From Sphingobacteriaceae bacterium (lineage in GTDB: Bacteria > Bacteroidota > Bacteroidia > UBA7662), in contig JAUXNJ010000031.1 of assembly GCA_030682795.1 (NCBI GenBank), positions 62,001-126,000 on the forward strand: a stretch of DNA of 64,000 nucleotides, given 5' to 3'. The notes beneath the pieces are model-generated. The model made no database searches. It worked only from the letters and a program-made list of their open reading frames with translations, and was not told where the DNA came from. The translations under genes and the position numbers were made by a program. Below are positions 59,844 to 63,826 of the stretch, one piece after another (positions within the stretch are counted from its first letter, which is position 1; each line of letters begins with the position of its first letter).

Positions 59844-59970
59844 CTGCTGAGACCGCTCGCTACGCTCGCTTTACAGACCGGTCGTTGCACTCCCTGACAG
59901 ACCGGTCGCTGCGCTCCCTAACAGACCGCTCCCTTCGGTCGCTGAGAGACAAAGCTGGCCCTGGCGTAGT
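59844..59970. repeat. Degenerate tandem repeat array (about 24-base units), copy 1
   Basis: About four units of the form acaGACCGnTCG...CTCCCT, each with an internal near-palindrome, followed by GAGAGACAAAGCTGGCCCT. The same sequence, diverged, recurs at 63703-63826. No coding frame fits across the array. Together the copies bracket the ECF block. Confidence 0.75.
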
Positions 59971-60025: not shown

Positions 60026-60145
60026 CAAATCATAAATCGCAAATCGAAATCGCAAATCACAAATCAAAATCGCTAATCGAAATCGGAAATCGCAAATCGA
60101 AATCGCAAATCGCAAATCCAAATCGCCCATCAGAAATCAGAAATC
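60026..60145. repeat. AAATCG(C) short tandem repeat
   Basis: Some 120 bases built almost only from AAATCG, AAATCGC and AAATCA units, with slipped spacing. It begins in intergenic DNA and reaches into the last codons and the stop (60130-60132) of the anti-sigma/barrel gene. Similar hexamer-like runs occur in other Bacteroidota genomes. No gene is seen within 59788-60129. Confidence 0.85.
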
Positions 60146-61485
60146 GACAGTCGCATCCCTATCCACACCTGATTGCGGAGGGCGGGCTGATCGGCGCGCA
60201 CCGTGCTGCGGTAGGTGGTTGCCCAACTGCAGTAATACCCGATTCTGCCGGGCTGGTACTGCATCGAAAAACTACCTGTCGCCAGCATGCCAAGCCGGGC
60301 TGGCGTAGTGTTTAAAGACACCAACTGCACCCCATCAAACCAAACCCCTTGATAGCGGGCGCGGTAATGCAGTCCCAACGAAGCCGCCGTGGCTAACTGA
60401 AAATCCCCCTTTTTAAAAAAAGCATATTCAAGGGTAACAGGCAACGAAAACTCTCGCTGCACACCGTTTTGGCGCAGGTTGATTTCGTTGTTGCCAAATA
60501 TCGAATCGGAAACAATGGGCTCATAGCCTTTTATCGTTTGAAGATAGCCAATAATAGACCCCGGCGCATAAACCGCTACCGGCAGCTCTCCTATGAATTG
60601 CGTTTGAAAGCGCTGGTTGATGAATTGCGGCTCGAGGCGCAAGCTAAACTGGTTAAAGGTGCGGAGCTGCAGCTGCAAGCTCAGTTGAGCACTGTTGAGG
60701 GCGCGGTGGTTGAGCTCATTGGCTGCCAACCCTGCTGGCGTAGTAAACTCGGCAGCGTGCCATGGCGACCAGGCCAACTGCACCCAAATGGGGAATTTAG
60801 AAGGCATTCGCTCCCTTTTAACTGGCGTACTGGCGTCAAAAAGCTCTGCTGCTGGCAGCAAGACAAGCGTTCCGGGCAAGGCCAAAGGCTTACGCATCAA
60901 AGCTCGCAACTTCAAAGGCTTCATTTTTTCAATGGGTTCGGCAAGTTCCGCTGCACCCTGCGCTTGCACGGTGGCAGGAGTATTTTCGACAGAGGCAAAA
61001 ACCGCTTTGGACGAAGGCTTGTCTGTTACAACTGCCAGGCTCGGATTAGCGGTAACCTGCCCGGCTTCCTTTGGGGTGGCAGCAGCAACGGCCTTTTGGG
61101 AAGCACTACCTCCCTCGGCAATGGCAGTTGTAGCTTTCTCGCGCTTGGCGGACTTCATTTCAGGACTGATAGCTGCAATTTCGCTTTTGCCCAGCGACTG
61201 CTCGGCAATGTTTAAGGCGGCACTTGCCTTTTCAGGAGTGCCCGAGGCAGTACCTGCATTGGTGCTACCGGCTGCTGGCGCCTTTTCAGATAAGGCCTCG
61301 GTTGTAGCTTTTGCCGCTTTTTTGTTGGCTTCGTTGCTTGGACCACTCAGCTGGAACACCAGCAAACCAGCGATGCAAGCCGTTGTAGGCAGCCAGAAGA
61401 ACCACCACAACAAACGGCGGCGCTTGCGACGGGCACGGGCTTTTTGGAAGGCTTCCCAATTCAATTTCGGATGTAAGTTGTTCAT
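60130..61485 (-). CDS. Inner-membrane-anchored protein with periplasmic linker and beta-barrel-like domain, putative anti-sigma factor
   Basis: 451 residues. A ~24-residue basic cytoplasmic N terminus (KARARRKRRR) precedes one transmembrane helix at about 25-47. An Ala/Lys/Glu/Ser-rich linker (~50-190) follows, likely extended. Residues ~225-451 have the strand pattern of small outer-membrane barrels (FSLRLEPQFINQRFQTQFIG, GLHYRARYQGVWFDG, NQVWIGMRLSISDF). It overlaps the sigma gene upstream by four bases. Bacteroidota often place anti-sigma factors fused to such barrel-like domains beside ECF sigma genes. The very short cytoplasmic end makes the anti-sigma role uncertain. Its last codons lie in the AAATCG repeat. 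Confidence 0.65.
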   Translation of the reverse strand: MNNLHPKLNWEAFQKARARRKRRRLLWWFFWLPTTACIAGLLVFQLSGPSNEANKKAAKATTEALSEKAPAAGSTNAGTASGTPEKASAALNIAEQSLGKSEIAAISPEMKSAKREKATTAIAEGGSASQKAVAAATPKEAGQVTANPSLAVVTDKPSSKAVFASVENTPATVQAQGAAELAEPIEKMKPLKLRALMRKPLALPGTLVLLPAAELFDASTPVKRERMPSKFPIWVQLAWSPWHAAEFTTPAGLAANELNHRALNSAQLSLQLQLRTFNQFSLRLEPQFINQRFQTQFIGELPVAVYAPGSIIGYLQTIKGYEPIVSDSIFGNNEINLRQNGVQREFSLPVTLEYAFFKKGDFQLATAASLGLHYRARYQGVWFDGVQLVSLNTTPARLGMLATGSFSMQYQPGRIGYYCSWATTYRSTVRADQPALRNQVWIGMRLSISDF

Positions 61486-62000
61486 TGAAAGAGGGTTTTA
61501 AGGTGTTTAACTAGCCGATGCACCCGCACCCGCGAATTGGCCAAGCTGATGTTTAAGTTGTCGGCTACTTCCTGGTGGGACATGCCGTATTCAAAATATA
61601 AGGTGTATAAGTCGTGTAAGTTGGGATGCAAGCGCGGGAGCACTTCTTCAGGACTAAACCTGCGTGCATCTGTTTGTTTCAGCGTTTGTTCGAAGAGGCC
61701 CAAGCTTTCCATCGAAACTGTATCCTTGGTTTTCTTTTTCATGCGCAGCGCCTCGTTGATGGTGATTTTAGAGAGCCACGATTTAAAATTGCCTTTAGTT
61801 GGATCGTAGTTTTTAAGCTTCTCGAAGGCAATGATCATGGCTTCTTGCGCCACATCTGCCGCATCATCATTTTCAAAACCATATTTCCGCGCCAGTTGAT
61901 AGGCATAACCCACATGTGCCTCATAAATCACACGCTCGCAAGCGGCTTCTCGGCGAAGCGCTCCTGGGAGTTGCACTAAAAATTGGTCTTGTGTGAGCAT
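61482..62000 (-). CDS. ECF sigma-70 family RNA polymerase sigma factor
   Basis: 172 residues from the ATG at 62000; two codons upstream a TTG is also possible. Region 2 is clear (YEAHVGYAYQLARKYGFEND, DVAQEAMIIAFEKL, GNFKSWLSKITINEALRMKK) and region 4 is DLYTLYFEYGMSHQEVADNL followed by NISLANSRVRVHRLVKHL. It recruits RNA polymerase to a dedicated promoter class. The downstream overlapping gene is the presumed anti-sigma partner and the upstream gene is a lipoprotein with a candidate promoter. Confidence 0.9.
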   Translation of the reverse strand: MLTQDQFLVQLPGALRREAACERVIYEAHVGYAYQLARKYGFENDDAADVAQEAMIIAFEKLKNYDPTKGNFKSWLSKITINEALRMKKKTKDTVSMESLGLFEQTLKQTDARRFSPEEVLPRLHPNLHDLYTLYFEYGMSHQEVADNLNISLANSRVRVHRLVKHLKTLFQ

Positions 62001-62056
62001 ATACAAAAGCGGGAGCCGACGTCAACCCCCGCATTTTATTCGTTTTTGGGGAAGGA

Positions 62057-62647
62057 TTAGCAGGGATTACGTTTCACACCAAATACGGTACTTACCGAGT
62101 CTACCACGCCGGTATAGGTGGGCACCAGGTTGCCTTGTGGGTCGACGGTAAATCCAGAAATCTCGCGCAGAGCTCCTGAGTAATCTCCAAAAATTGAATC
62201 CGTGGTTAATCGGGTAATATTTATTGACAACTGGGTAGGATCATACTGCCTAAACAAAGCGCCTGGCGCATCCAATAAACAAACCGCATCTTCAAAACGT
62301 GCAATGCTGTACGCTCCAATGCCGAAATTTTGAGAGTTAAACACCAACACCAAAGAAGTATCGCTGGGTGCGGTGCTGTAAGTGCGCGTGGCTGGATCAA
62401 AAAGCACCCCGTTGCCAGTAATGGCTGCCCAGAAGGTTTGCCCGCTTGTATCGGTGCAAGAAATGCCGTAGCCTTGCGAGGAGTAATTCACAGCGCTGCC
62501 ATTGAGTACGAGGCGCATGTTCATGCCTGAAACGTAGGTGGTATCGGGTGCGTTGGGCTTAAAAGTGCTAACCATTACTGGCTCGGGTTCACAGCTTGCG
62601 AGCAAGGCTATGGCCGCTAAGAGTACAATTGTTTGTTTTATTTTCAT
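62057..62647 (-). CDS. Lipoprotein paralogue 1, DUF6252-like
   Basis: 196 residues from the ATG at 62647 (MKIKQTIVLLAAIALLASCE, lipidated Cys19). The body is beta-rich: GMNMRLVLNGSAVNYSSQGY, GISCTDTSGQTFWAAITGNG, LLDAPGALFRQYDPTQLSIN and the last segment VSTVFGVKRNPC. It is homologous along its length to the gene at 62964-63554 and may belong to DUF6252; its role is unknown. It lies 56 bases upstream of the sigma gene on the same strand and is probably cotranscribed with it. Confidence 0.75.
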   Translation of the reverse strand: MKIKQTIVLLAAIALLASCEPEPVMVSTFKPNAPDTTYVSGMNMRLVLNGSAVNYSSQGYGISCTDTSGQTFWAAITGNGVLFDPATRTYSTAPSDTSLVLVFNSQNFGIGAYSIARFEDAVCLLDAPGALFRQYDPTQLSINITRLTTDSIFGDYSGALREISGFTVDPQGNLVPTYTGVVDSVSTVFGVKRNPC

Positions 62648-62663
62648 GATTTCTAATCTTTGA

Positions 62664-62700
62664 TCACCCTCAATAGGCCTATTTGTGCGCAAACGTTACA
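62664..62700 (-). promoter_or_regulatory. Conserved motif pair upstream of lipoprotein 1 (candidate ECF promoter)
   Basis: On the minus strand TGTAACGTTT (62691-62700) and CCTATTGAGGGTGA (62664-62677) have a fixed offset; the second ends 16 bases before the ATG. Both blocks, with the same offset and distance, occur upstream of lipoprotein 2, while the bases between differ. GTAAC-type -35 elements are common in ECF promoters. Confidence 0.5.
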
Positions 62701-62963
62701 GCTGTTGTAAAATATTTTTTGATTCGCCATTAAATCACTCGTAATGAACGCTTCATACATCAAAGGGTTTTGTATTTTTTGGAGGATGGACTGCTTTTAT
62801 TGGCATTTACCAGCCTGGGAAAGGGCTGGCGCTTTGTTTAGATGCATTAGGATATAAGTTGGTGTTGAATTTTGTGATACGTGCGGATGCAGTGCCTTGT
62901 TACAAAACGCCAAAAGCGAGCGCCGATAAAACCGACGCCCGCCCTTGGATTTGAAGTGGCTAC
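62701..62963. other. Intergenic DNA between the two lipoprotein genes
   Basis: Some 263 bases with no supported open frame. It holds the upstream region of lipoprotein 1 and the end of the transcript of lipoprotein 2. A short AT-rich tract lies at 62701-62780. Confidence 0.4.
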
Positions 62964-63554
62964 TTAGCAAGGATTTCTCTTCACACCAAAATTGGTGCTT
63001 ACCGAATCTACCACCCCTGAATAAACAGGCACCAAGTTACCAAGTGGGTCTACGTTGAGGCCAATTACTTCCGGAAGCGCTCCAGAATAATTGCCAAAAA
63101 TAGAGTCTACAGTAAGGCGGGTGATGTTTACAGTGAGTTGGGTAGGATCATACTGCTTAAACAAAGCACCAGGGCCATCCAAAAGACACAAAGCATCTTC
63201 AAATTTGGCAATGGTATACGTACCAATACCGAAGCTTTGCGAATTAAACACGAGTACCAAAGAGGTATCGTTCGCGGCCGTACTGTAGGCACGGGTAGCG
63301 GGATCAAAAATCACTCCGTTGCCCGTGATGGCTGCCCAAGTGGTGTTTCCAAAACTATCGGTACACGAAATACCAAGCCCTTGGGAAGTGTTGTTGTACA
63401 CACTGCCGTTTAGTACCATGCGCATGTTCATGCCAGAGACTGTAGCGGGTGCGTTTGGTGTTGGTTTCAAATTGTCTACCAATACATCATCTTTTTTGCA
63501 ACTCATTAGCGCGGCTGTGGTTGCGATCATCAGGAAAGCTGTTTTTAAGTTCAT
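62964..63554 (-). CDS. Lipoprotein paralogue 2, DUF6252-like
   Basis: 196 residues (MNLKTAFLMIATTAALMSCK, lipidated Cys19). It is a close copy of lipoprotein 1: GMNMRMVLNGSVYNNTSQGL, ITGNGVIFDPATRAYS, LDGPGALFKQYDPTQLTVN and the identical end GVKRNPC. Most differences are conservative. The N-terminal linker after the cysteine is the most diverged part. It has the same promoter-like motif pair upstream. The function is not known. Confidence 0.75.
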   Translation of the reverse strand: MNLKTAFLMIATTAALMSCKKDDVLVDNLKPTPNAPATVSGMNMRMVLNGSVYNNTSQGLGISCTDSFGNTTWAAITGNGVIFDPATRAYSTAANDTSLVLVFNSQSFGIGTYTIAKFEDALCLLDGPGALFKQYDPTQLTVNITRLTVDSIFGNYSGALPEVIGLNVDPLGNLVPVYSGVVDSVSTNFGVKRNPC

Positions 63555-63570
63555 TGTTTGAAATTTTAGT

Positions 63571-63607
63571 TCACCCTCAATAGGTAAATGCCCCCTGAAA
63601 CGTTACA
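63571..63607 (-). promoter_or_regulatory. Conserved motif pair upstream of lipoprotein 2 (candidate ECF promoter)
   Basis: TGTAACGTTT (63598-63607) and CCTATTGAGGGTGA (63571-63584) on the minus strand, with the same offset (27 bases between block starts) and the same 16-base distance to the ATG as upstream of lipoprotein 1. Confidence 0.5.
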
Positions 63608-63702
63608 AGCTTTATAAAATAATTTTCAGAAACAGTCCCCATTTGTTTTAAATCCGCTATTTACATGTTGACTAAAATATAAATATGACTTCAGCAACCG
63701 CG

Positions 63703-63826
63703 TAAGACCGCCCTTCGACAGGCTCAGGGATCGCTCGCTTTACAGACCGCTGCGCTGACTGACCGGTCGTTGCACTCCCAGACAGACCGCTCCCGTTGGT
63801 CGTTGAGAGACAAAGCATGCCCTAGC
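63703..63826. repeat. Degenerate tandem repeat array, copy 2
   Basis: A diverged copy of the 59844-59970 array: TCGCTCGCTTTACAGACCG, GACCGGTCGTTGCACTCCC and GAGAGACAAAGC are shared in the same order. It sits in the non-coding stretch 63608-63957, where no gene was found. Confidence 0.75.
63711..63729. repeat. Widespread CCTTCGACAGGCTCAGG-type palindromic repeat
   Basis: CCCTTCGACAGGCTCAGGG, with CCCT/AGGG ends. This motif is a known dispersed repeat in many bacterial genomes. Here it forms the first unit of repeat array copy 2. Confidence 0.6.

Follow-up and report, generated by a model that had tools for sequence, protein, structure and literature searches.

The locus examined here raises the question of whether an ECF sigma factor, together with the membrane-anchored protein encoded directly downstream of it, drives its own operon and one further lipoprotein gene in a closed envelope-sensing loop. 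It lies in a stretch of 64,000 nucleotides, referred to as the window, from the genome of an environmental bacterium (Bacteroidota, Sphingobacteriaceae). The initial annotation, which proposed this loop, covered the interval 61482-63607 with the sigma gene, both lipoprotein genes and both promoters, and the partner gene extends the locus to 60130. Two other genomes of the genus were used for comparison, namely the MAG of Sphingobacteriaceae bacterium isolate BC.015 (G002, 85% complete) and G001 (listed as 96% complete). The genes are transcribed on the minus strand in the order lipoprotein 2, lipoprotein 1, ECF sigma factor and partner, and the following features were assigned:

63578-63607, minus strand: box pair of the lipoprotein 2 promoter, with the -35-like TGTAACGTT at 63599-63607, N15, and the -10-like CTATTG at 63578-63583.
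62964-63554, minus strand: lipoprotein 2 gene, an ORF of 196 aa with a lipobox ending at Cys19; orthologue in BC.015 at L009:10931-11524.
62910-62948, minus strand: terminator-like hairpin 3' of lipoprotein 2; its BC.015 counterpart has a long U run.
62671-62700, minus strand: box pair of the promoter for lipoprotein 1 and the sigma operon, with TGTAACGTT at 62692-62700, N15, and CTATTG at 62671-62676.
62057-62647, minus strand: lipoprotein 1 gene, an ORF of 196 aa starting at the ATG at 62647.
62009-62032, minus strand: hairpin in the gap that separates lipoprotein 1 from sigma; its U tract is weak, and the fold z-scores are -2.7 (window) and -4.0 (BC.015, same place).
61482-62000, minus strand: ECF sigma factor gene, 172 aa from the ATG at 62000, with regions 2 and 4.
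60130-61485, minus strand: partner gene, encoding a Dma-like putative anti-sigma factor of 451 aa (Dma proteins are described below).

The partner ATG overlaps the sigma stop codon by 4 bases (ATGA), and 56 bases separate the lipoprotein 1 stop codon from the sigma ATG, as originally described. A longer ORF for lipoprotein 1, beginning with a TTG at 62692, enters the promoter and is not favoured; the likely start is the ATG at 62647, which matches that of the paralogue. Between an acetyltransferase gene and the partner gene, two direct-repeat arrays are found (59848-59944 and 60027-60151) with units of ~24 nt of the GACCGSTCSCT type and of the AAATCG type; GACCG words of this kind are also present near 63700-63800.

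Upstream of both lipoprotein genes we identified TGTAACGTT-N15-CTATTG, with identical spacing and an identical distance to the ATG. Read directly, the two blocks of the initial annotation, TGTAACGTTT and CCTATTGAGGGTGA, do precede both genes where it had placed them, its search pattern GTAACG-N18-TATTGAGG is exact at both, and 16 bases lie between block and ATG when counted from GGGTGA. Only the reported offset of 27 bases was wrong, as the block starts differ by 23 bases, leaving a gap of 13 bases between the blocks. When the promoter pair of the window is aligned on CTATTG, the boxes agree at 100% of positions, the spacer at 29% and the 90 bases farther upstream at 23%, which bears out the earlier remark that the blocks were spared while the intervening bases differ; the divergence of the spacer and the far upstream region is at the level of unrelated or random sequence. 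Conservation extends past the -10 box, where the window has GAGGGTGA and BC.015 has GGTGTRA, and the box pair has an A/T-rich tract upstream and a short leader downstream. The conserved Bacteroidota housekeeping box TAnnTTTG was found in none of the four upstream regions of the window and BC.015.

In BC.015, a second species of the genus, all four cassette genes are present in unchanged order and with the ATGA overlap kept. Identities between the window and BC.015 are 69% for the sigma factor, 33% for the partner and 52-61% for the lipoproteins relative to lipoprotein 1. Both lipoprotein genes of BC.015 are again preceded by TGTAACGTT-N15-CTATTG, at 54 bases from the ATG versus 53 in the window, and the 15 box positions are invariant across the four promoters. 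A shared word of the shape 9+N15+6 across the four upstream regions of the two species was obtained in 0 of 2,000 shuffles. The initial annotation had held that loss of the blocks in relatives keeping the genes would speak against its proposal; the one relative with the genes, BC.015, carries both blocks at both of them. The same promoter therefore stands before the sigma operon and before its proposed target and is conserved in the one relative that keeps the sigma factor, as expected of an autoregulated regulon. Since the cassette occurs in two species only, this conservation is counted over four promoters. The third genus member, G001, is without the lipoproteins and the partner, has no sigma match at E 1e-22 (a distant ECF match of 3.5e-11 only), and yielded the box motif neither when two mismatches were allowed nor in a profile search. 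As this assembly is listed as 96% complete, it is unlikely, though possible, that these features escaped detection because their sequence is lacking.

The exact box pattern occurs at two sites only in the 3.14-Mb window genome, both at the cassette. With a one-base tolerance in spacer length, the search gave these 2 sites and 2 in BC.015, with none elsewhere in either genome, and a sequence profile built from the four promoters recovered the same four and no others up to E = 10. As the whole-genome motif searches find two promoters per genome, the regulon would consist of two promoters; since BC.015 is 85% complete, its assembly could lack another target. This size agrees with the originally guessed set of the sigma factor's own operon plus the second lipoprotein gene, and we infer that the sigma factor uses both promoters. 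Two-mismatch matches in the window genome were not accepted as regulon members, being almost all intragenic and about as numerous as expected by chance. Within a 395-genome sample of the class, one further genome (G283) had an exact match, which was discarded as a regulon promoter because it is intragenic, the gene lying on the opposite strand. In BC.015, a two-mismatch box pair (L018, G002:C15:74693-74722) precedes another lipoprotein-like gene, at 60 bases from its ATG; the pair is A-rich and possibly due to chance.

The sigma factor has regions 2 and 4 only and, at 172 aa, falls within ~170-200 aa, as is the case for ECF factors (Pfam Sigma70_r2 7.7e-16, Sigma70_r4_2 1.1e-8; TIGR02937 above cut-off), while TIGR02985, the Bacteroides sigma subfamily, scored 46 against a cut-off of 126. 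Whether this factor reads the box pair is the point at which a first alternative has to be considered, namely that another sigma factor reads it, or that it is a repressor operator, with the adjacent ECF gene a mere passenger of the operon. A separated box pair at fixed spacing is the usual look of an ECF -35/-10 promoter, and the two boxes found here, with their A/T-rich tract upstream and short leader, resemble such a promoter more than an operator. Moreover, the motif is confined to the two cassette genes and is absent from G001, which is without close cassette homologues yet keeps another ECF gene. The passenger explanation draws some support from the other ECF-like genes of the window genome (12 first-look candidates; 2 matches at E 1e-10) and from the conserved stretch past the -10 box, which is longer than an ECF -10 needs, but on balance we consider it unlikely.

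The partner consists of a cytosolic end (residues 1-25), a TM helix (~26-48), a disordered tether (~49-215) rich in Ala, Lys, Glu, Ser and Pro, and an amphipathic beta domain (~231-451). Identity between the two species is 68% in the N-terminal 25 residues, a stretch that includes LHPKLNWEAF, 18% in the tether (49-215) and 38% in the last 220 residues. Alternating hydrophobicity, which is typical of membrane beta strands, was detected in 49 windows of the last 225 residues versus ~15 in shuffles, in both species, and did not exceed chance in the tether. An AlphaFold model of the partner, obtained with two sequences, shows a long helix (10-46), little structure up to ~270 and long strands in the last 180 residues; with a pLDDT near 32, it supports secondary structure only. 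Nothing significant was returned by a fold search with this very-low-confidence model as query, and Pfam and NCBIfam gave no match, neither to a Pfam barrel family nor to a recognised anti-sigma domain. The beta domain probably sits in the outer membrane. The generic label of a membrane-anchored partner, used at first, is better replaced by that of a Dma-like protein reaching toward the outer membrane.

The partner probably acts as an anti-sigma factor. The alternative is an ordinary envelope protein merely co-expressed with the sigma factor, which would then be controlled otherwise, for example at the level of transcription alone. This would agree with a cytosolic part of only ~25 residues that matches no known anti-sigma domain, but it is improbable considering that the same cytosolic stretch is the most conserved part of the protein (68% vs 18-38% elsewhere), that its gene overlaps the sigma gene by 4 bp, and that many related Bacteroidota ECF genes precede one for a single-pass protein whose cytosolic end contains Trp. 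The latter arrangement is common among the ECF relatives in 60 genomes, where the C-terminal domains vary. Next after the nearest sigma factor outside the genus (L029, G021:C43) comes a single-pass protein of 463 aa whose tether is probably coiled and whose C-terminus is beta-rich, a candidate for another Dma-like partner; a profile comparison between this protein and the cassette partner gave no detectable kinship.

The two lipoproteins of the window are 69% identical, and no Pfam or NCBIfam family reaches its cut-off for either. A hit of lipoprotein 2 to Riean_0653 (3.5e-5, 24.8 bits vs a cut-off of 57) was dismissed, as it is absent in the other three members, and the AlphaFold model is of very low confidence (pLDDT 32-34 for the lipoprotein and partner models), so that it can be read at the level of secondary structure at most. 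The genes are mosaic in both species (62057-62647 and 62964-63554 in the window, L009 9939-10526 and 10931-11524 in BC.015): across codons 40-162, 56 informative sites are of the paralogue type and 8 of the orthologue type, versus 9 and 16 at the gene ends. This pattern of sites is consistent with an ancestral duplication, after which gene conversion acted on the central part in each lineage. Just 3' of CTATTG, the paralogues within a species are more alike than the orthologues, and local gene conversion could account for part of the within-species likeness of the promoters; it does not explain the promoters themselves, because the spacers diverged and the boxes did not. A reading of the boxes as remnants of duplication or of gene conversion between the lipoprotein genes, with no regulatory meaning, is compatible with the mosaic coding ancestry but very unlikely. 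Conversion should have made the spacers alike as well, yet their identity is 29% in the window. The second species, moreover, keeps the boxes with the spacer and far upstream region diverged, a cross-species conservation that largely refutes this explanation.

A hairpin with a weak U tract separates lipoprotein 1 from the sigma gene in both species (-20.2 kcal/mol for the stretch in the window and -21.0 in BC.015; z -2.7 and -4.0), and a terminator-like hairpin closes lipoprotein 2 in each of them (z -4.3 and -4.1). The intergenic hairpin probably acts as a partial terminator, or else stabilises the 3' end, and would thereby keep the sigma factor below lipoprotein 1. Termination would be partial, giving much lipoprotein and little sigma factor from one promoter.

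Taken together, we regard the locus as a likely autoregulated envelope-response cassette with a private regulon of two promoters, in which a Das/Dma-like sigma/anti-sigma pair would drive its own operon and the duplicated lipoprotein gene. This reading is based on the conservation of the boxes between paralogues and species, their restriction to two genes, their co-occurrence with the cassette, the conserved gene order, the gene overlap, the hairpins and the layout of the partner. The short conserved cytosolic end of the partner would hold the ECF sigma factor at the inner membrane, and the single helix and the disordered tether of ~170 residues would join this end to the beta domain, probably in the outer membrane. 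An envelope signal may then free the sigma factor, which would read TGTAACGTT as -35 and CTATTG as -10 and give rise to two transcripts, one with lipoprotein 1, the hairpin, sigma and partner, and the other with lipoprotein 2. Many transcripts from the operon would end at the hairpin after lipoprotein 1 and a minority would replenish the sigma factor and its partner, so that each promoter would mainly yield lipoprotein. A more far-reaching version, which we offer tentatively and hold to be doubtful in full, is that of a minimal, genus-restricted Dma-like circuit whose whole regulon is the two twin-lipoprotein promoters and whose entire anti-sigma domain is the ~25-residue peptide, and in which the lipoproteins may act on the outer-membrane beta domain of the partner, closing a surface feedback loop.

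Such a two-promoter regulon would provide a clean, small system for how a protein spanning two membranes signals to a sigma factor. To our knowledge, few promoter sequences are known for Bacteroidota ECF factors, and the cassette supplies a specific predicted -35/-10 pair for one of them.

Classical autoregulated ECF sigma/anti-sigma pairs act on envelope targets. The cassette shares with them the predicted -35/-10 pair, the probable presence of the sigma gene in its own regulon and a co-transcribed, overlapping partner; it differs in that this partner is without a recognisable anti-sigma domain and ends in a beta-rich domain. With the Bacteroidota ECF genes that precede a single-pass partner, as encountered among 60 relatives, it has in common the gene order and the Trp-containing cytosolic end, and several of those partners are beta-rich at the C-terminus. 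However, these sigma factors are only distantly related (best E 6e-23 vs 1e-110), and none of those listed showed TGTAAC with CTATTG after it in the upstream region.

The closest likeness in layout is to the Dma proteins, which have an N-terminal anti-sigma part, a helix, a long disordered tether and a C-terminal beta-barrel, with the ECF gene adjacent (PMC13088901). These anti-sigma factors were studied in gut Bacteroides, where losing one alters many genes, directly and indirectly; in Bacteroides thetaiotaomicron, they control the neighbouring ECF factor, which belongs to the ECF21 family (PMC13088901). Loss of Dma2 in this species places genes in and beside the dma2 operon among the most raised, and loss of Dma1 raises nigD1 (PMC13088901). 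Here as well, an ECF gene lies beside a protein with a cytosolic N-terminus, one helix, a disordered tether and a C-terminal beta domain. Dma2 loss raising its own operon is paralleled by a cassette that would drive its own operon, and NigD1, a small Bacteroidota-only protein among the Dma1 targets, is counted as a further likeness. Unlike in the Dma systems, the cytosolic part of the partner comprises only ~25 residues, the regulon would comprise only two promoters, and the operon is headed by a lipoprotein gene whose duplicate has its own copy of the promoter. The cassette is therefore a well-supported, unusually compact example of an already known type of envelope-sensing circuit, and not a new type of system.
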